DNA of 64,000 nt, from the NCBI GenBank assembly GCA_028293125.1, contig JAQGPJ010000077.1, forward strand, positions 62,001-126,000, given 5' to 3'. The DNA comes from Verrucomicrobiales bacterium. Its GTDB lineage: Bacteria; Verrucomicrobiota; Verrucomicrobiia; Verrucomicrobiales; V1-33. The notes beneath the pieces are model-generated. The model was not told where the DNA came from, made no database searches, and was given only the letters and a program-made list of their open reading frames with translations. This document shows positions 19,333-29,339 of this stretch, piece after piece. Both the position numbers and the translations under genes were made by a program. Positions within the stretch are counted from its first letter, which is position 1, and each line of letters begins with the position of its first letter.

Positions 19333-20163
19333 CTATTCGGAAAGCGGAGCCGGGCTGTGTCCGTGCAGAATGGCCTGAAGCGCCTGGCGGCAGTTTTGCC
19401 GGCGGATGGCCTCATCCGGAAAGGCTTGGTTCAGCAGAGCCAGCAGAAACAGCAGATAGGTGCCGAAAATGGCACCCGCCAGAGCGGTGGTGTCTGTTTT
19501 GGGAAGCAGCATCCCGCGGGTGATGGAGACGCGCAGCAGGAATTCCAGTCCATCCAGAAAATCCTTCAGCAGACGGTCGTGATCCCCCGGACCGTCGGGC
19601 CGCGTGGTCAGCAGCACCTCGCGCATGATGGCGCGGGAGACGCCGCGGTGAACGGAGTAGAAGGTGTAGAGTTTTTCAAAAACATAGTCCAGCTGCTCCA
19701 GCAGGGGGAGGGGCTCCGCGGCGGTCAGCATGACGGTGAATGCCGCCTCGCCGATGGCCCGCAACTGGCCGTCGAAGGCGGCCACTGCCAGCCGCTCCTT
19801 GGTCGGCTCCACGGTGAAGACGGTGCCGTGGGAAACTCCGGCGCGTCTGGCGATCTCGGCCGTGCCGGCGGATTCAAAGTCGGTTTCCTGAAAAACGGAC
19901 AGCGCCGCCTCCAGCACACGGCGGCGTGTCTGCATGCGCTTGGTTTTGCGTGGCGACTGGGGCTCCGCGGCTGAAGCGGGGGCCGGATCGGGAATGGGAT
20001 TTTCGGACAAGGGCGGCAAGAGTGGTTTGAAGGGACCGGGGCAGGGAGGGCGGAGGGCGTCGAATATCTGGTGCGGAAGCTCCGGTCTGTCGAGAGCCCG
20101 TGCAGACTGGCGGCCCGTCATTTTTTTGCGGAGAGAAGACGATTCCGGGTGTAGAGAATACAT
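19333..20163 (-). CDS. TetR/AcrR-family transcriptional regulator
   Basis: The helix-turn-helix is visible as TRRRVLEAALSVFQETDFES then GTAEIARRAGVSHGTVF, followed by the KERLAVAAF start of the ligand-binding domain. The recognition-helix end is slightly off the usual pattern (TVFTVEPTKE rather than LYxxFxSKE). About 90 Pro-rich residues precede the HTH if the ATG at 20163 is used; the true start may be 20121 or 19935 (MQTRRRVL). The gene is divergent from the CNNM/CBS gene at 20199, which it may regulate. Ligand unknown. Confidence 0.8.
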   Translation of the reverse strand: MYSLHPESSSLRKKMTGRQSARALDRPELPHQIFDALRPPCPGPFKPLLPPLSENPIPDPAPASAAEPQSPRKTKRMQTRRRVLEAALSVFQETDFESAGTAEIARRAGVSHGTVFTVEPTKERLAVAAFDGQLRAIGEAAFTVMLTAAEPLPLLEQLDYVFEKLYTFYSVHRGVSRAIMREVLLTTRPDGPGDHDRLLKDFLDGLEFLLRVSITRGMLLPKTDTTALAGAIFGTYLLFLLALLNQAFPDEAIRRQNCRQALQAILHGHSPAPLSE

Positions 20164-20198
20164 GGGCCGTTTTTGGCCACCCCCCTTCAATCACTTAA

Positions 20199-21704
20199 AT
20201 GAATCAACTACTGCTGGATTTGGGAGCCATCTTGCTGCTGCTGCTGGCGAACGGATTTTTCTCCATGGCGGAAATCGCCATCGTCTCCTCCAGCCGGCCC
20301 AAACTGAAACACCTCGCCGCCCAGGGCGACATGCGGGCGGAGGCGGCGCTGGAGTTGGCGGCGGAGCCCAACCGCTTTCTGTCCACCATCCAAGTGGGCA
20401 TTACCCTCGTCGGGGTGGTGACAGCGGTTTTCAGCGGCGCGCGCTTTTCGGAGGCCGTCGCCAAACCGATGCTGGAGATCGCTTGGCTGGCCCCCTATGC
20501 TGAGGAGGTGTCGTTCTCCCTGGTGGTGGGCGCGCTGACCATCTGCACCCTGGTGATCGGGGAACTGGTGCCGAAACGTCTGGGCCTGAGCAACCCCGAG
20601 GGCATTGCCCGCGCGGTGGCCCCGATGATGCGGCGCATGGCGTCCCTCTGCGCACCGCTGGTGGCAGTGCTGGGATTTCTCACGGGCATCTTCATTAAAC
20701 TGCTGCGGGTGAGGGACCGGCCGGAGGCCATGGCCTCCGAGGAGGAAATCCAGATGATGGTGCGCGAGGGCAGCCTGTCCGGGCATTTCCATGAAAGGGA
20801 GGCCAGCATGGTTTCCAGCGTGATGGCGCTGGACAAGCTGCACGTCAGCAACCTGATGACGCCCCGCACCCGCATCATCTGGGTAAGTGTGAACGACAGT
20901 GATGAGATGCTCTGGCACAAGGTGGTGGTCAGCGGGCACTCCACCTTCCCGGTTTACGAAAACACCCAGGACAATGTGCTGGGGACGATCTCCGTCAAAT
21001 CCATCTATGCCACCATCGCCGCCGGCATCCCGGTGAAAATCCGCAATCTGATCGTGCCGCCGGTGTTTGTGCCGGCCACACAGACGGCCACCTCCCTGCT
21101 GGAGAAGTTTCAGCAGTCCACCAAGCATGTGATGCTGGTGCTGGATGAGTTCGGCGGCATCAGCGGGCTGGTGACCCTGCATGACCTGATGGAGGCCATC
21201 GTCGGCGACCTGCCTTCGCAGGGCGACCTCACCCGCCCCACCGCCCTGCGCACGGATGACGGCAAATGGCTGGTGGACGGGATGCTGGACACGGAGGGAT
21301 TCGAGGAGCTGATCCCCGCCTGCGCCCTGCCGCCACTGGCCACGCGCGATTACCAGACCATCGCCGGCTTTGTCATGAAGCACTTGGGGCGGATGCCGGA
21401 GGTCGGGGAGAGCTTCGACTACAGCGGCTACCGGATTCAGATTCTGGATTTGGACGGCTACCGCATCGACAAATTGCTCCTCATGCCCCAGCCCGATCCG
21501 TGGGCGCTGCCGGTCAGGCCTGCGGAAACAGCAGCGGCGGCGGAAAACAGGCGGGAAAGGGAGGAGGCGGACCCGGAGGCTTTTTCATCCAGTCCGGAAG
21601 GCCGTGTGGAAACACAGGAGAATGAGGAACCCGGCTCCCGGACGGAGGAGACCGCCGCCGCCGGGGACAGCACAGAGCGTGCATACGGATCCCGAAAGGA
21701 TTGA
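20199..21704 (+). CDS. CNNM/TlyC-type membrane protein with CBS pair and CorC domain (hemolysin family)
   Basis: 501 residues. The N-terminal DUF21/CNNM membrane domain (about 1-185) shows LLLLLLANGFFSMAEIAIVS and LVIGELVPKRLGLSNPEGIA, the family signatures. The CBS pair follows (VSNLMTPRTRIIWVSVNDSD, STFPVYENTQDNVLG, HVMLVLDEFGGISGLVTLHD). A CorC_HlyC domain (GKWLVDGMLDTEGFEELIPA, ATRDYQTIAGFVM, YRIQILDLDGYRIDKLLL) comes next. The tail of about 60 residues is acidic and Glu/Ala-rich. Relatives are linked to magnesium/divalent-cation homeostasis rather than hemolysis. Its divergent neighbour is a TetR regulator, and a redox gene follows 33 bases downstream. Confidence 0.9.
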   Translation: MNQLLLDLGAILLLLLANGFFSMAEIAIVSSSRPKLKHLAAQGDMRAEAALELAAEPNRFLSTIQVGITLVGVVTAVFSGARFSEAVAKPMLEIAWLAPYAEEVSFSLVVGALTICTLVIGELVPKRLGLSNPEGIARAVAPMMRRMASLCAPLVAVLGFLTGIFIKLLRVRDRPEAMASEEEIQMMVREGSLSGHFHEREASMVSSVMALDKLHVSNLMTPRTRIIWVSVNDSDEMLWHKVVVSGHSTFPVYENTQDNVLGTISVKSIYATIAAGIPVKIRNLIVPPVFVPATQTATSLLEKFQQSTKHVMLVLDEFGGISGLVTLHDLMEAIVGDLPSQGDLTRPTALRTDDGKWLVDGMLDTEGFEELIPACALPPLATRDYQTIAGFVMKHLGRMPEVGESFDYSGYRIQILDLDGYRIDKLLLMPQPDPWALPVRPAETAAAAENRREREEADPEAFSSSPEGRVETQENEEPGSRTEETAAAGDSTERAYGSRKD

Positions 21705-21737
21705 CGGATTGGATATGTCCGGCTCAGGATAGGCCTC

Positions 21738-22922
21738 ATGAAATCTTACTTTCTGGGTGTTCTTTGTCTGCTGGCTCTGATGATCACCGGACCTGCAAGG
21801 GCGGAGGATCCCCTTGGATTTAACCGACTGGCGATCGGGGAGGCGGCTCCGGACTTCAAACTGCCCGGCATCGACGGACGGAACTGGACGTTGGCGGACT
21901 TTGCTGCTTCGGACGTGCTGATGGTGTATTTCACCAGCAACCACTGCCCAGTCTGCCATGCCCACGATCCCCGGCTGCTGGCGCTGCTGAAGGAACTGAA
22001 GGGCAAAAGTCTCGCGGTGGTGGCCATCAATCCCAACTCCCCCGAGGGCCTGCGACCGGATGAACTGGGCTACTCCAAATACGACGACAGTTTCGAGGAC
22101 ATGAAGCTCTATGCCAAAGACGAGGGCTTCACCTTTCCGTATCTGTATGACGGGGACACGCAGAAAACCGCCAAGGCCTACGGCTGCCTGGCCACCCCGC
22201 ATGTATTCCTCTTCGACAAAGCCCGCCGGCTTCAGTATCAGGGGTGGTTTGACGATTCCCGGTTTTCCGACCCCTCCACCGTGAAAAGCCAGGACACCAA
22301 AAAGGCCGTGCTGGCCCTCCTGGACGGCAAGCCGGTGCCGGTGCCCGTGACCCGCCCCTTTGGCTGCTCGACCAAATGGCTGGAGAAAAAGCACGAGGTC
22401 GCCACGGATAATGCGCACTGGGAAAAAGCGCCCGTCACCCTGGAGTCAATCGACGCCGCCGGCGTGGCCGCGCTCGCCAAAAACCCCACCGGCAAATACC
22501 GCCTGATCAATGTCTGGTCCACCACCTGCGCCCCCTGCGTCCAGGAATTCCCGGGTTTGATGCGAGTGTCTCGGCGGATGGGGCTGCGGGAGTTTGAGCT
22601 GATCACCCTGACCACCGACTTGCCGGAGGACCTGCCGAAAGCGCGGGCTTTTCTGGAGAAACAGCGGGCCGTGCTGCCGTCAGGCCTGGCGGACTCGCTG
22701 AAAAGGGAGGGCCGGACCACCAACAACTACCTTTTCAAGGAGGCCAGCATGCAGGCGCTGATCACCGCCTTGGACCCCGTCTGGGAAGGGCCGCAGCCCC
22801 ACACGGTTCTTATTGCACCGGGAGGCAAAATCATCTTCCGCCACACCGGTGCCCTCACTGAAGCGGAACTGCTGGATCAGGTGCTGAAGGTGATGAGCAA
22901 CAGTTATCAGCCGGGTAAGTAA
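21738..22922 (+). CDS. Exported protein with two thioredoxin-like (redoxin/TlpA) domains
   Basis: 394 residues with a signal peptide (MKSYFLGVLCLLALMITGPA, cleavage near ARA). The first domain begins IGEAAPDFKLPGIDGRNWTL and carries a CPVC active site (YFTSNHCPVCHAHDP). The second, after about residue 240, carries NVWSTTCAPCVQEFPGLM with a CAPC site and the cis-Pro region QPHTVLIAPGGKI. Both redox sites look intact. Predicted periplasmic thiol-disulfide chemistry. It starts 33 bases after the CNNM/CBS gene on the same strand and could be co-transcribed. Two-domain arrangements like this recur in PVC bacteria. Confidence 0.87.
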   Translation: MKSYFLGVLCLLALMITGPARAEDPLGFNRLAIGEAAPDFKLPGIDGRNWTLADFAASDVLMVYFTSNHCPVCHAHDPRLLALLKELKGKSLAVVAINPNSPEGLRPDELGYSKYDDSFEDMKLYAKDEGFTFPYLYDGDTQKTAKAYGCLATPHVFLFDKARRLQYQGWFDDSRFSDPSTVKSQDTKKAVLALLDGKPVPVPVTRPFGCSTKWLEKKHEVATDNAHWEKAPVTLESIDAAGVAALAKNPTGKYRLINVWSTTCAPCVQEFPGLMRVSRRMGLREFELITLTTDLPEDLPKARAFLEKQRAVLPSGLADSLKREGRTTNNYLFKEASMQALITALDPVWEGPQPHTVLIAPGGKIIFRHTGALTEAELLDQVLKVMSNSYQPGK

Positions 22923-22974
22923 GGCTCCTGCGGATTTCCGTAATGAAAGGCTGGGGGACAGGGAGAACCGCCCC

Positions 22975-23000
22975 GCGGTCGCCGCACATGCGGTGACCGC
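22975..23000. terminator. Hairpin between convergent genes
   Basis: GCGGTCGCCGC (22975-22985), loop ACAT, GCGGTGACCGC (22990-23000); 10 of 11 pairs. It lies between the double-thioredoxin gene (plus strand, ends 22922) and the acyltransferase operon (minus strand, ends 23012). There is no U-tract on either side, so it may act as a stem for Rho-independent pausing or transcript protection. Its position fits a shared bidirectional terminator. Confidence 0.5.
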
Positions 23001-23011
23001 CGGCGGATCAC

Positions 23012-23782
23012 TCAAAATGTGATAAATCCATCCCTCTTAAGAAAGAGAGAGCATTCCTTGACGAAGGAGTCAATCTCCATGCTGTATCGGCGGCTGTGAT
23101 TCACCATCAGGCGGACAGAGCCGCGATAAAAAGAGTCTTCGATGATAAGGTCCGCACCCTCATGCCGCACAGGGATGCTGCCCAGCCGCTGCAGGGTTCT
23201 GGCAGCGCCATTGGAGGTCCTTAAAGCGGAGATTCCCGGCATTGGCGGCACCATGGCACCCAGCGCCCATGATGCGCTGATCACCGCCATTGACACCACT
23301 GGGCTTCTTGGAAAATCAGAATTGGCCAACCAGCCACTTGTCTCTATCAGAGACGCCGATTCCTGATGGGTTTCCTCCAGCTGGCGGAGCACAGCTTGGC
23401 AGGCGCTGTCCGGGATTTGGTTGCGCTGTATGATTTCCTGGTAAAGTGGGACAGCATCGGCCGGGCTTGGATGCTTCCAGTGAAACTGATTCCGGATTGT
23501 GCCCAGCAGGCAATTATGCCGGTGAATGATCAGATGCACGCAGGATTCATCCCTGCCCCCGGAAAGACGGGAGGGGTTGCGAAGAGCCGTTTTGGGCAGA
23601 ATCCCCCGCTCAATATAGGAGACCGCACGGGCCCGCTGTACAGCGCGGATGGCCGCCGCCGCCGCCACCGGATCCCGGCGCAGCGGCACCTCAGACAGAA
23701 TACCCGCCGCGTGGTAGTCAAATTCCGGGCCGCACACCGCTGTCAGGGAATAGCCCCGATCTGAAATGCCTGTAAAGCGCAT
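23012..23782 (-). CDS. GNAT-fold acyltransferase, FeeM/autoinducer-synthase-like (second copy in operon)
   Basis: 256 residues, last gene of the four-gene minus-strand operon, starting 6 bases after the putative diiron gene. The layout follows N-acyl amino acid synthases: an early basic helix (RAVQRARAVSYIERGIL), a strand with an acidic/polar lead-in (DESCVHLIIHRHNCLLGTIR), then LIETSGWLANSDFPRSP and SASWALGAMV, and LQRLGSIPV in the region where GNAT enzymes hold acyl donor and acceptor. The C-terminal strand segment is SFYRGSVRLMVNHSRRYSME. Assignment is by pattern and by its position with another FeeM-like gene; no single motif is decisive. If right, it transfers a fatty acyl group from acyl-ACP to an amine. 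G+C content is like the rest of the genome. Confidence 0.55.
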   Translation of the reverse strand: MRFTGISDRGYSLTAVCGPEFDYHAAGILSEVPLRRDPVAAAAAIRAVQRARAVSYIERGILPKTALRNPSRLSGGRDESCVHLIIHRHNCLLGTIRNQFHWKHPSPADAVPLYQEIIQRNQIPDSACQAVLRQLEETHQESASLIETSGWLANSDFPRSPVVSMAVISASWALGAMVPPMPGISALRTSNGAARTLQRLGSIPVRHEGADLIIEDSFYRGSVRLMVNHSRRYSMEIDSFVKECSLFLKRDGFITF

Positions 23783-23788
23783 GGCGGT

Positions 23789-24511
23789 TCAATACGCGGT
23801 CAGCTGCTCCAGATCCTCATACCGGGCTCCCTCCTCTGTCCGGAGGATCGAGGAGGTGGGATCAAAATCCTGACAGGTGAGCGTATCGCTCAGGGTGGCC
23901 CAGCCGGCGAGGCGGAGATACATGATGGCTCCGATGTTCGCGCCCTCCACAAGCTCCTCCAAATCCTCCGGTTTAAGCGGAGCGCTGGTGAGGGCATCCA
24001 GAATCTGATCCCCGTGCGGGAGCAGCTCATGGAAATGGATGGTGAGAAACCGGGTGTTGGATTTGGTGAGGAAAGGAGCGTCGTCCAGCAGCCGGTGGCC
24101 CAGAGCGCCGGCGCCGGCGCCCAGATTCTCCAGGACACAGGTGGCGCCCAGCCTGACAAAGGGGCGGTGCTCCACGATCCGGTCAAAATAAGCCCACCAC
24201 AGGCTGACGTCCAAGGGGCAGGGCAGCGGCTTTTCCCCCATCCGCTCAAGATCGACCTCCGCCACCCGGTAATGCGGCTCCTCCTCCAATCCGAACTTGA
24301 ACAGAAACTGCCGCAGCTGATTTTTTCCACTGAGGCGCGGATGGCCGGCCACTTTCAGAAAATGCCGCTGCACCCCCTTGGTCAAATGATACTGGAAAGA
24401 CAGGTAGCGGATGTACATCTGTTTTGAAAGTCCTCCACGGGTCTCCAACTGCTTCAGCAGGGCGGCAAATTTGACTTTGGCCTTCTCGACAATTTCCAAT
24501 ACTTCGTTCAT
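23789..24511 (-). CDS. Haem-oxygenase-fold protein, putative nonhaem diiron enzyme (iron-containing redox enzyme/PqqC-TENA-like)
   Basis: 240 residues, mostly helical. LSKQMYIRYLSFQYHLTKGV then QRHFLKVAGHPRL is the typical opening helices of haem-oxygenase-like proteins. Candidate metal ligands in order are Glu/His in GLEEEPHYRVAEVD, Glu in CVLENLGAG, and a His-rich last helix TIHFHELLPHGDQI (two His seven apart with a Glu between, compared with the usual H-x3-D-x2-H). Members of this fold (UndA, BesC, CADD types) use two irons and oxygen for fatty-acid, amino-acid or amine chemistry. It lies 15 bases after the methyltransferase and 6 bases before the acyltransferase, so it is in the operon. 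Substrate unknown. G+C content is genome-like, unlike the gene upstream. Confidence 0.6.
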   Translation of the reverse strand: MNEVLEIVEKAKVKFAALLKQLETRGGLSKQMYIRYLSFQYHLTKGVQRHFLKVAGHPRLSGKNQLRQFLFKFGLEEEPHYRVAEVDLERMGEKPLPCPLDVSLWWAYFDRIVEHRPFVRLGATCVLENLGAGAGALGHRLLDDAPFLTKSNTRFLTIHFHELLPHGDQILDALTSAPLKPEDLEELVEGANIGAIMYLRLAGWATLSDTLTCQDFDPTSSILRTEEGARYEDLEQLTAY

Positions 24512-24526
24512 GTTTATTAAAAGATT

Positions 24527-25243
24527 TTATATTGATTCAGCAGGCTTAAAAGCAAAAACCCAATCGCTATAATTTCTATAGCATGTTGCATAATTATTGA
24601 TTTCAAATCCTGCGTTTGTAATTTTGTTGATAAATTCCTCGGCTGAATGCACCCAATATGCTCCGCGATCCTGCTGCGATCGGATTTTTTTATTCGATAA
24701 TAAAACCAGAAAACCTTTTATAAGTGTAATAATGGATTGGAAGAAACCTTTTTTGTGATATAAATATTTGAAAATATATCGACGCCAGTCGGAGACGTCC
24801 ATTTTTCTGCCAAGATCAATTGCAAAAAATATACCCCCGGGTTTTAAAGAATCATAAATATTTTTTAAAAGCAATTCATGCTTGTTTGAACAGTAAATTG
24901 AATGCACTGCTACAATAACTGAAATGTTACTTTCGAAGAGTAATAAATCATGATAATCTTTATTTAATAAGATTATATTTGATTTATTCTGAAGTTTAAA
25001 TTTTTCCGCAGCTAATTTTAGCATTTCTGGATTCAATTCCACTGCTGAAATGATATTTTTGTGAAAAATATCACTGAGTTTCAATGAAAAATTCCCAGTA
25101 CCAGAACCTAACTCAAAAATTTTTTCCTCTGAAGATAGCTGTAATTTCCCAAGCGATCGTTGCAGGATTGGAAATAGTTTCTGATATTCAGGATTATTTT
25201 CAGCCATTAAATCATAGCATTTTGCATAGGTGGACCAATTCAT
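24527..25243 (-). CDS. Class I SAM-dependent methyltransferase, AT-rich
   Basis: 238 residues. The SAM-binding Gly-rich loop IFELGSGTGNFSLKLS (motif I) is clear, followed by SAVELNPEMLKLA (acidic ribose contact region), NIILLNKDYHDL and LKPGGIFFAIDLG (motif near the end of the Rossmann core). The C-terminal third (SAEEFINKITNAGFEINNYA) is a typical methyltransferase tail. It overlaps the upstream acyltransferase by four bases (ATGA), implying translational coupling. Base composition is strikingly AT-rich: by direct count, base lines 24541 and 24961 are 32% and 18% G+C, against 53% in the operon's last gene (line 23761). This points to horizontal acquisition. The methyl acceptor is unknown. 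Confidence 0.85.
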   Translation of the reverse strand: MNWSTYAKCYDLMAENNPEYQKLFPILQRSLGKLQLSSEEKIFELGSGTGNFSLKLSDIFHKNIISAVELNPEMLKLAAEKFKLQNKSNIILLNKDYHDLLLFESNISVIVAVHSIYCSNKHELLLKNIYDSLKPGGIFFAIDLGRKMDVSDWRRYIFKYLYHKKGFFQSIITLIKGFLVLLSNKKIRSQQDRGAYWVHSAEEFINKITNAGFEINNYATCYRNYSDWVFAFKPAESI

Positions 25244-25881
25244 TCAAATGATTTAATTAAAGGATGGTGTTCCAAGAAAATTGGAGAATGCAGTGGGTGG
25301 TTTATTGTTCTGTATCTTTGTTCAAGACCGCTTAACTCGATGTAGAAAATGTCATGAATTTTATTTCCAAGCTGCTGATGTTTAAAGGATAGGCCGGGCA
25401 GTTTGGAAAACATCAATCGTTCGTAATCACGGCGTGCTCCTTCGCGAACCCACACAATCATATGATTTCTTTGCAATCCCAAGCAATGACGGTGAAATGC
25501 TTTCCATAAAGCTAGCTTAACTGCTTGACGCTCAGGACAATGGGTTACTGCAAATCTCGTCGCTTCTGAAAAATTCCGCTCAAAGCGATTCAATGCTGCA
25601 GGATCTTGCACATATTTTTCCAATTCAACAGGTCCACGCCAAGCGTCCAAGATTCTTAAAGTGCCTAAAGGAACATTTGATCCGTCGTTTAAATTTGAAA
25701 TGCGGGAAGCGAGAAAAATCGTGGCGTTTTTAGAATTATCATATTCATCCACAATTTCTTCATGACTCAAACCGTATTTTTTATATCCATTATATCTAAT
25801 ATTAATAGCTTTTGAAAAATCAATGGAAAGTTTGACGGGTATTACTTGAATTGTATTTAGAAAGGAAATTTGAGAAATCAT
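25240..25881 (-). CDS. N-acyl amino acid synthase FeeM-like / autoinducer-synthase-like acyltransferase
   Basis: 213 residues, first gene of the operon. The pattern follows FeeM-type and LuxI-like GNATs: an arriving arm INIRYNGYKKYGLS, an acidic Asp/Glu segment VDEYDNSKNATIFLASRI, the strand PLGTLRILDAWRGPVELEKY, SEATRFAVTHCPERQAVKLA (E-x-x-R-F-A-V like the E-x-S-R-L-A-V of these enzymes), LWKAFHRHCLGLQRNHMIVW, and a C-terminal FKHQQLGNKIHDIFYIEL. Expected chemistry is acyl transfer from acyl-ACP to an amino acid or amine. Known long-chain NAS genes are linked to PEP-CTERM/exosortase systems, but no exosortase is seen here. G+C content is lower than genome average (43% by count over line 25501). 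There is no Shine-Dalgarno sequence; the minus strand instead reads CCTCCTGAA just before ATG. Confidence 0.65.
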   Translation of the reverse strand: MISQISFLNTIQVIPVKLSIDFSKAINIRYNGYKKYGLSHEEIVDEYDNSKNATIFLASRISNLNDGSNVPLGTLRILDAWRGPVELEKYVQDPAALNRFERNFSEATRFAVTHCPERQAVKLALWKAFHRHCLGLQRNHMIVWVREGARRDYERLMFSKLPGLSFKHQQLGNKIHDIFYIELSGLEQRYRTINHPLHSPIFLEHHPLIKSFE

Positions 25882-26045
25882 TTCAGGAGGAAAATTTCGA
25901 AGTCTAAAATAGTGACTTGTCTGAAGTCAGTTCTTTGTTTCCAACTTTTTGTCACCGCGCGTGCGCGCTTTTTTTGCGCGGCGCAATGGTTCCGGGAATC
26001 CTGTCCCGTTCCGCCGGAAGCCCCGCGCCGCTGCGGTGCGGAAAC

Positions 26046-28553
26046 TCAGAATGCAAGGCGGGCGCATTTCCATTTTCCGCCCGTGTAAACGAGATCCGCA
26101 GTCCAGACGGCTTCGTGGCCGCGATCGTCTATTTCGAGCAGCACACGGCGGCGTCCGCCGGACAGGCTGGCCGGGGGACTGGGAATGCGCGCAAGACGGG
26201 GGCGGGAGCCGTGGGACTGGCTGTTCCGGAAAGTGCGGATCAGCGTATCGCTGGGGGGTGGCTGAATGACGGGTGGATCCTTCAGGGGAAAATCCTTGAT
26301 TTCCCATATAAGGACCGGGAGAAAAAAATCCCTGAGTGGATCTTCCCCGGCGTGCGGCGCGGGGGATCGCAGGATGGCCGTCAGGGACTCCGCCCATTGG
26401 ACGACCTCGGCCACGGGCAAGGCGCGGGATTCGCACGACCACAGAGGCAGGGAAATGGAATCGAGCCGATCCACAAGATAGGTTTCAGGATCGGGATTCC
26501 TGCCACCGGCCAGCAGCAGGATCAGGGCGCCGGTGGCGGAGCCATCCGGGAAATCGGACATATCCTCGGCCAACCGGCAGTAAGTAAAACGGTTGTATGG
26601 AGGGGGCATGGTGCTCATTCCCTTTCCCACAGGCCTGAATTGCCGGTGGGGGGACTGGAGGCTGGAGGCGAAATCCAGCAACGCCGCCCGCCGGGCGTCC
26701 CCTGAAACGGGGGGAGCGGCGCCGCATCGCAGCGTTCCATCCAGAAACGGCAGGCTTTCGTCCACCGGAATGTCCCTCGGGCTCCGTTGGAGAAGAAGAT
26801 CCATCAGAATCCGCGTGGCGCGGATGGCGCGGGCATCCAGCGTGTACCAAGCCCCCTCGGGATGCCAGGGAGTGGGTCTGTGCTCTGGTTCCTGGCCAAT
26901 CCAGAAGTCCGGCGCGGGCAGGGGACGGGTGGTGTAAAACAGAAAAGCCGGCAGCACCAGACTGTGGCGCCACTTGCGGAACCGCCACCAGCGCTCCAAA
27001 GCGGAAAGCACGGTGACCACGCCGGCGAACAGATAAACCAATGCCAGTGTGGTGATATAGCGCGGGATCAGACCGGGAATATAGAGGCTTTTGTCAAAGT
27101 CCCTGCCGGCAGGGTCGGTCAGCCATCCTAAACGCTCCCGGATCCAATACTCCTGGCCTTCAGGCATCCAGTTCCAAGGATCCAGCGCCTCTTTGCCGTC
27201 GGAGCCGACGGTCAGCACCAGCCCCCGCATCCATGGCGCATAGGTGTCGTCGATCCAGTCAATGCAGCGCTCACTCCAGGCGATGCTGCTGAAAACCGCC
27301 GGGGCCACAACCAGCAGAGCTTGAGTCAGGAGCATGACCGCCGCCGCCTGGTCGGAGGTGCCCAGCCGGAGCCCGAAGGGGGATGGGAGCGCCTCGCGCA
27401 GGGGTGTTTTGCGGAAGTGCCAGAGCCGGAAAATCTGCCACAGCGCGAATGGAAGCGAGATGGTCAGCAGGACCAGCACCGCTTGGTAAGTTCCAATACG
27501 CTCGCTCTGGGGTCCCATCAGGTCCAAGGGCAGGGTGATGCCCAGCTGCTCGATCCGCACAATCATCCCCAGCGAGCCCAGCAGCAGAAACAATCCGGCC
27601 AAAGTCCATGCCGCGTCCATGAACCGCACCGCGCGTGTCACGCGGGGGGTGCCGGCATAACGGGGCGGGGTGCGGGCGATGCGGTTCACCTCGTTCAGCA
27701 TGGCCTGCACGGATGGGAAGCGCCGGAAGGGATCAGGGTCCAGCGCTTTTTGAATAACGTCGTCCACGCGGATATCGACCCGCTTCCGGCGGGAAACGGG
27801 GGACCACGCTCCCCGCGGCGGATGGCCGGACAGTATTTCGTACAGAATGACTCCCAGAGCGTAGATATCCGCGACAGGCCCGGAGCGGTGATCCAGCTGA
27901 TAGCATTCCGGTGCCAGATACTCAGCGGTGCCCGCGATATGCCCCGAGACGCTGAGGGAAAAGGTGACGACTCTTTCCGGAACCGGGCGCGAGAGTCCGA
28001 AGTCCGCCACCTTGATGGCCCCCTCCGGCCCCAACAGAATATTGGCGGGCTTCAAATCGCGGTGCAGGACGCCTTGGGAATGGGCATATTCCACGCCCGA
28101 GGCAATGGCGCGGAAAAGGCGCAGGGCCTCCGGCCAGCCGTATCCCTGATTGGGGATCAGCATGGAAAGCGGGGCTCCCTCCACATATTCCAGCGCCAGC
28201 CATGGCCCTCCGTCAGGGCAGGTGCCGGCCTCCAGGAGGCGGACAATATGAGGGCGTCCCAGGGCGCGCAGGGAATCGGCCTCGGCCATCAGCCGCGCTG
28301 ACATTTCAGAGTCACGCCGTATGGGGATCTTCAGAGCGGCAGGGGTGCCGCCGGGCATGGTCTCCGCTTTCCAGACAACGGCGGATCCGCCTGTGCCCAG
28401 TCGCTCCAAAATCCTTCAGCCCGTGATTGAGGGCATGTCCGCATCATCCGGTCCGCTGCCAGCCAGCCCGAGAGCGGCAAGAGCCTCGAGATTCAGGCCC
28501 CGCGCGGGAGGCCGCGGCGGATGAGGATCCGGGCTGGACGGGAGCGGCATCAT
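26046..28553 (-). pseudogene. Membrane Ser/Thr protein kinase paired with ECF sigma factor; in-frame TGA before the kinase domain
   Basis: From ATG 28553 the frame encodes 45 residues (MMPLPSSPDPHPPRPP, later NLEALAALGLAGSG) ending ...PSITG, then TGA at 28416-28418, then RILERLGTGGSAVVWKAE without frame change. That junction is where kinases have the first strand (x-R-I-L-E-x-L-G-x-G-G), so a codon for a residue was lost. If translation starts after the stop, the first possible codon is TTG 28409, giving a kinase with almost nothing before the Gly loop. The kinase core is otherwise complete: VLHRDLKPANILL, VADFGLS, YLAPECYQ, VADIYALGVILYEILSG. Four or more membrane segments follow (for example LAGLFLLLGSLGMIVRI), then a soluble C-terminal domain. 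The gene lies 36 bases downstream of the sigma gene. Confidence 0.75.
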
Positions 28554-28589
28554 GAAACCAGGAGGCGATACGGACCATCAGTGTGTTTG

Positions 28590-29339
28590 TCACAGGCGGC
28601 CGCTGAAAAGACTCCTCAGTTCCGCATCCAGTTCCGGGCCCTCCCTAACGCCGAGGGCCTGGGCCGCGGTGAGGCGCAGCATTTTCTGATACCGTCTCCG
28701 CAGACGCAGCACCGCCATGCGCAGATTCCCGCCGGTGGTCCGCAGGCGCTGCGCGGTCTGGTCATAGGTTTGATCCGGCAGCGGCCCTTCCAGGGCGGGC
28801 AGCAGGGCCTCCACCAACGCCGCTTTGCCGATGGAGGTGTAGAGGTCCACCAGCTTTTCCACGGCGGAATCCAGGATGGCCGTCGCCAGATTCCGGCGCC
28901 AAGCAGTGGCGGGATCGTCCTGGAGAGCGGGATCATGGCGCCAAATGGCCTCCGCGCTTTCCGCGTCCAGAGTGATCAGCGGTATGCCTCCCCCGCGTTT
29001 GGCGGCCCCCGCGGCCCGTCTGCGGTCGCAGATCTGATTCCGCAGAATAGTCAGCAGCCATGACCGCAGCCTGCCTTTCTCCGGAGCGGCACTGCCCAGC
29101 AGATTTTTCCTGACAACTTCTGCGAAAAGGATCTGCACCGCGTCGCACGCGTCCTCCGGCTGCAGACCCTCGCGCCGGGCTGCAGCATAGAGCGGATACC
29201 AGTAGATCCGGCAGAACTCCTCCCGGTCCATCCTGGTGTCATCCCCCTGCCGGGCGGCACGGCGCACCAGCGACCAGCGCGTGGGCGTGAAGCCGGCATT
29301 CCGGCGCAGTCCGGCTACGGGGGCGATTTCGGCGGGCAT
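28590..29339 (-). CDS. ECF-type RNA polymerase sigma factor (kinase-associated)
   Basis: 249 residues. Region 2 is visible as FCRIYWYPLYAAARREGL then QPEDACDAVQILFAEVV (the core-binding and -10 contacting region) and GRLRSWLLTILRNQICDRRR. Region 4 is weaker: LEGPLPDQTYDQTAQRLRTT then GGNLRMAVLRLRRRYQKML, the HTH part. Sigma factors of this type lie next to membrane Ser/Thr kinases in PVC bacteria, and here the kinase starts 36 bases downstream on the same strand. The kinase presumably phosphorylates the sigma factor or a partner in place of an anti-sigma factor; this is inference from known ECF-kinase pairs. ATG at 29339. Confidence 0.85.
   Translation of the reverse strand: MPAEIAPVAGLRRNAGFTPTRWSLVRRAARQGDDTRMDREEFCRIYWYPLYAAARREGLQPEDACDAVQILFAEVVRKNLLGSAAPEKGRLRSWLLTILRNQICDRRRAAGAAKRGGGIPLITLDAESAEAIWRHDPALQDDPATAWRRNLATAILDSAVEKLVDLYTSIGKAALVEALLPALEGPLPDQTYDQTAQRLRTTGGNLRMAVLRLRRRYQKMLRLTAAQALGVREGPELDAELRSLFSGRL

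Follow-up and report, generated by a model that had tools for sequence, protein, structure and literature searches.

FeeM-type N-acyl amino acid synthases (NAS; Pfam family PF21926) are known from eDNA clusters and occur with tailoring enzymes in several described pathways. In the clusters for stieleriacine, thalassotalic acid, kyonggic acid and tyrazolone (tyz), the NAS gene is accompanied by genes for a methyltransferase and for an oxidising enzyme (PMC12479983, PMC7293339, PMC10404671). The arrangement nearest to the locus described here, an NAS with a methyltransferase, a ThiF protein and a nitroreductase, is found in Stieleria and related clusters (PMC12479983). N-acyl amino acid methyl esters (NAMEs) are known from roseobacters, and synthase candidates for them were not found (PMC11580390, PMC6296433). 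Enzymes of the haem-oxygenase-like dimetal superfamily usually carry a ligand set of three histidines and three carboxylates (PMC13108848). We analysed a four-gene locus that brings together two FeeM-like enzymes, a methyltransferase and a haem-oxygenase-fold protein. It lies in a 64-kb stretch of DNA from a Verrucomicrobiales bacterium (hereafter, the window), taken from a contig of 176,915 bases in a genome of 6.48 Mb.

Two gene pairs in an operon-like arrangement

The four minus-strand ORFs, each with an ATG start, were confirmed in the window (Table 1). Genes 1 and 2 overlap by 4 bases, gene 3 starts 15 bases after gene 2, and 6 bases separate gene 3 from gene 4, in agreement with the preliminary description, which had presented the genes as closely packed. 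The ORFs represent more than chance, since all four have relatives in other genomes and genes 1 and 2 pass Pfam cut-offs. The tight spacing implies co-transcription; no promoter was identified with confidence in the upstream intergenic region. The segment directly upstream of the operon (26046-29339) encodes a Ser/Thr kinase and a sigma-70 region 2 protein.

Table 1. Positions, strand and base composition of the features of the locus in the window (GC3, GC at third codon positions).
Feature	Position	Strand	Description	GC	GC3
Gene 1	25240..25881	-	213 aa, FeeM-family N-acyl amino acid synthase (PF21926)	0.37	0.30
Gene 2	24527..25243	-	238 aa, class I SAM methyltransferase, rare NAS-linked subfamily	0.32	0.28
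Gap	24512..24526	-	15 bases, junction of the low-GC pair and the host-like pair		
Gene 3	23789..24511	-	240 aa, haem-oxygenase-fold protein, putative dimetal oxidase/oxygenase	0.59	0.73
Gene 4	23012..23782	-	256 aa, divergent FeeM-like GNAT acyltransferase	0.58	0.65
Upstream intergenic region	25882..26045	-	flanked by gene 1 and by the kinase gene, which ends at 26046; likely operon promoter site		

The base composition breaks abruptly at the gap between gene 2 and gene 3, a feature absent from the preliminary description. Genes 1 and 2 form the lowest-GC stretch of the window, the overall GC of which is 0.62, and no repeats marking an insertion mechanism were found at the junctions of the low-GC segment. 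Relatives of genes 1, 2 and 3 were absent from the phage and viral collections, where these were searched, and the set is therefore not evidently phage-borne; defence-system and phage libraries returned generic methyltransferase matches only. Judged by composition and gene content, the locus apparently joins two modules, a low-GC pair of gene 1 and the methyltransferase and a host-like pair of genes 3 and 4. The former probably came from a low-GC donor and was placed directly upstream of the resident pair.

Each pair also recurs on its own. Genes 3 and 4 are adjacent at all three intact gene 3 loci (the window and two further loci from Verrucomicrobiota, L002 and L003), and relatives of genes 1 and 2 were found at neither L002 nor L003. 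The methyltransferase adjoins FeeM-type genes in other phyla, at loci without genes 3 and 4. A second genome with all four genes was not found among the collections and Verrucomicrobiota samples searched. The linkage in relatives that the preliminary description had anticipated was thus observed for each pair and failed for the full quartet. Its view of the genes as a single four-gene system was not supported in that form, given these separate occurrences and the foreign composition of genes 1 and 2. The earlier interpretation as a whole was partly supported.

The reading that we favour, with a probability of about 0.5, is that of a composite operon which makes modified N-acyl amino acids and is built from two gene pairs that would act on one molecule. 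Gene 1 would load an amino acid with a fatty-acyl chain, the donor of which is probably acyl-ACP. Gene 2 would methylate the product, most likely at the carboxylate, so that an N-acyl amino acid methyl ester results. Genes 3 and 4 are most likely a pair for oxidation and acylation, in which gene 3 would oxidise an amino acid, an amine or an acyl substrate and gene 4 would either acylate the oxidised molecule or make the substrate for gene 3. Alternatively, two independent pathways, each with a product of its own, may share a promoter, the insertion upstream of gene 3 being incidental. This is a serious possibility, with which the occurrence of each pair without the other, the sharp GC break and the failure to find a second genome with all four genes agree; it is opposed by the co-transcription that the gene overlap and short gaps imply and by the FeeM-like enzyme held by both pairs, which makes related chemistry plausible.

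The haem-oxygenase-fold protein and the divergent acyltransferase

Two relatives of gene 3, labelled Akkermansia sp. and Verrucomicrobiia, were present in a bacterial and archaeal genome collection; the full-length identity of gene 3 was 82% to the protein at L002 and 71% to that at L003. A search of 388 sampled genomes of the phylum matched its own genome only, and a search of 387 genomes of the order returned its own genome, G408 (apparently L003), a fragment of 53 residues in G433 and, with doubt, G539. At L064:9187-9345, a 53-residue piece of a gene 3-family protein has no gene 4 relative nearby and is apparently a decayed copy. In L002, as in the window, gene 3 is followed by a gene 4 relative (40% identical) on the same strand. 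The L003 relative faces gene 3 in convergent orientation, overlaps it by 4 bases and is more distant (25% identity over 84 residues to the L002 protein; E 2e-5 in one comparison). Similarity among the three loci begins approximately at the gene 3 start codon, and the loci resemble each other too closely for conserved residues to be very informative. At L002, the gene 3 relative is immediately preceded by a pair encoding an Xre/MbcA/ParS antitoxin and a RES-domain toxin (L002:4364-5260). The sigma-factor and kinase genes found upstream both at L002 and in the window were considered as a shared context and rejected; at 29% and 34% identity, they were taken as probably generic.

Gene 3 had no noteworthy match in Pfam or NCBIfam, and a direct sequence search of the PDB returned nothing meaningful. 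Its AlphaFold2 model was weak (pLDDT 55.8, pTM 0.57). Among the Foldseek matches listed for this model, nearly all had the haem-oxygenase fold, with a best E value of 0.015 and TM scores of 0.44-0.59 in the first four; the CADD-like 3b5o/3b5p and Sden_3740 (3dde) headed the list. VIA-align gave Z values of 11-14 over approximately 200 residues, with TenA chains first (14.2). Both structural searches point, on a low-confidence model, to the haem-oxygenase fold that the preliminary description had proposed. A profile comparison with three PF14518 proteins was weak (probability 4.5, P 0.009) and collinear over 174 columns, and its reversed control failed. In this alignment the LSK-type start of the first helix of gene 3 lines up with the PF14518 proteins, and H159 and H166 match both histidines of the HxxxDxxH motif; the aspartate aligns with L163, E162 standing one position before it, so that the pattern in the third core helix is HxxExxxH where those proteins have HxxxDxxH. 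The candidate metal ligands are E76-E78, H80, E128, H159, E162 and H166, which would keep part only of the known diiron ligand set. Set against the usual three-histidine/three-carboxylate set, gene 3 is accordingly described as a haem-oxygenase-fold protein with a putative, atypical and unproven metal site.

The protein could instead have a non-redox role within the fold, as a TenA-like protein or, for instance, a hydrolase. We consider this rather unlikely. The VIA-align ranking of TenA, the loss of the aspartate and the absence of a PF14518 match at E 1 would fit such a protein, but the Foldseek ranking favours the CADD-like structures and 3dde, and the first-helix start and both histidines align with PF14518 proteins. 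Metal-dependent oxidation is the predicted activity of gene 3. The same genome encodes a second haem-oxygenase-fold protein (PF14518; L068:1165-2930, contig C52), the gene for which overlaps one resembling a fatty acid desaturase.

Gene 4 had no match in Pfam or NCBIfam and did not reach the PF21926 cut-off, and its AlphaFold2 model (pLDDT 41) was too poor to use. Its family (the proteins of the window, L002, L003 and L036) nevertheless aligned with a FeeM-family set in hhalign with a probability of 96 (E 3.5e-9), which fell to 92.5 for three sequences, without L036, and to 90 for two. The controls stayed far lower (0.3-0.7 for reversed profiles, at most 0.1 for 20 column shuffles and 0.1 for the gene 3 profile). 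R52 of gene 4 falls at the first arginine motif of gene 1, R97 and E147 fall at R76 and E106, and ETSGW stands where gene 1 has EATRF. By this profile evidence, gene 4 is a divergent FeeM-like GNAT acyltransferase and a remote relative of the FeeM family; it is filed as FeeM-like and not as a member because it scores below every family model. The FeeM-like character claimed for it in the preliminary description was thus upheld by profile comparison and not by a PF21926 match. Its acceptor probably differs from that of gene 1, as suggested by the replacement of the ExxRF motif by ETSGW.

The FeeM-family synthase and its methyltransferase partner

Gene 1 exceeded the curated PF21926 cut-off (E 1e-6; 29.1 bits against 27) and gene 2 matched Methyltransf_25 (E 1.9e-12) with the SAM-binding motif GxGTGN, which bore out the earlier assignments of these genes as a FeeM-type synthase and a class I methyltransferase. 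Gene 1 keeps motifs of the LuxI/FeeM type, namely RYNGY (R29), DEYD (45-48), LGTLR (R76) and EATRF (E106, R109). Its nearest outside matches were Paraburkholderia/Caballeronia plasmid proteins (27-29% identity), and phmmer found no relatives among the verrucomicrobial loci collected. Proteins in which a FeeM domain is fused to a class V aminotransferase-like domain were observed at L013:1351-3078 and L014:346-1968 (540-575 aa), a length common to many verrucomicrobial FeeM matches. Earlier work, in so far as it is cited in PMC7293339, linked PEP-CTERM proteins to NAS genes; this genome has 14 PEP-CTERM matches, and none of the matches listed falls in the window.

Gene 2 matched broad families of class I methyltransferases and reached the cut-off of no curated equivalog. 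The best NCBIfam match was BioC (TIGR02072) at 50.9 bits, far below the cut-off of 184.95. BioC is a carboxylate O-methyltransferase. The gene 2 subfamily was rare: among 72,556 plasmids it was present in four records, three from Sulfitobacter and one from Deinococcus, and reciprocal queries with the Sulfitobacter and Deinococcus methyltransferases recovered the same four plasmid records only. Of 260 sampled Verrucomicrobiota genomes, the 259 other than its own contained no member. Identity over nearly the full length was 33% to the Sulfitobacter and 25% to the Deinococcus proteins. A FeeM/GNAT-type gene adjoined the methyltransferase in every one of the four records, and the two neighbours that were scanned matched PF21926 with E values of 1e-36 and 7e-26. 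The three Sulfitobacter records are close relatives, and the independent instances are therefore the window, Sulfitobacter and Deinococcus. Pairwise BLAST gave no significant similarity between gene 1 and the Sulfitobacter and Deinococcus FeeM proteins, which places the NAS partners in different FeeM subfamilies. The methyltransferase is consequently the constant element, and we do not claim the pairs as orthologous units, as only the methyltransferase subfamily is shared. In Sulfitobacter sp. OXR-159, the NAS-linked methyltransferase gene on plasmid unnamed03 (L072:3277-5438) is split by an IS256-family transposase gene, and the copy on plasmid unnamed02 (L085) is uninterrupted. The Deinococcus actinosclerus plasmid operon (L071:4264-7622) encodes a fatty acid desaturase, a FeeM-type NAS, the methyltransferase and a second methyltransferase. 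Family membership alone does not determine the methylated atom; gene 2 may instead catalyse UbiE-type C-methylation or N-methylation, and the methyl ester is favoured as the simplest product and one that would match the roseobacter NAMEs.

Gene 1 could also be read as a LuxI-like synthase in a quorum-sensing operon whose product is an autoinducer. It retains the ExxRF and DxxD residues of the LuxI type, and FeeM relatives adjoin EAL-domain genes in Paraburkholderia and a histidine kinase gene in Sulfitobacter, yet neither gene 1 nor gene 4 matched PF00765 (Autoind_synth) at E 1 and no LuxR-type regulator was present among the flanking genes scanned, which leaves a signal synthase improbable. 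An assembly artefact, with the low-GC segment as a contaminant joined into the contig, is very improbable: the GC change is abrupt and gene 1 and the methyltransferase are absent from the relatives searched, but host-like sequence lies on both sides of the segment within the long contig, so that the assembly would have had to go wrong twice, both times at a gene boundary and with an operon-like arrangement as the outcome.

Comparison with known systems

By its Pfam match gene 1 belongs to the FeeM-type synthases known from eDNA clusters, of which gene 4 is a remote relative; the locus differs from those clusters in that its operon holds two enzymes of this type and, between them, a haem-oxygenase-fold protein. 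In S. neptunia, the NAS adjoins a UbiE-like methyltransferase, similarly to genes 1 and 2. Gene 2 shares the class I fold with BioC/UbiE-type methyltransferases, which gave its best family-level scores; it lies far below their cut-offs and belongs to a separate NAS-linked subfamily. The stieleriacine, thalassotalic acid, kyonggic acid and tyz clusters rely on a desaturase of the nitroreductase family together with a ThiF-family protein, whereas the oxidising candidate here is gene 3; no ThiF-family or nitroreductase genes were found among the five flanking genes scanned (19333-29339). Gene 3 shares the fold and perhaps part of the ligand pattern with UndA, CADD, SznF, BesC, AetD and PolF (PMC13108848), and is set apart from such dimetal enzymes by the lack of a sequence-family match and by HxxExxxH in place of HxxxDxxH. 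A limited search of the open-licence literature for haem-oxygenase-like diiron enzymes with N-acyl products in gene clusters found only work on diazo metabolites.

The roseobacter NAMEs are the predicted product class of an NAS and O-methyltransferase pair, and their biosynthesis has not been linked to any gene. The gene 2 subfamily with its FeeM-type neighbour is present in plasmids of Roseobacteraceae, and its position next to a FeeM/GNAT-type gene there, in Deinococcus and in the window, that is, in three phyla, provides a concrete candidate gene pair. Pairs of the gene 1 and gene 2 type are candidates for a methyl-ester lipid pathway whose genes were not known. With genes 3 and 4, the NAS would gain an oxidising partner of a new kind; those in the described clusters compared here work with nitroreductase-type desaturases.
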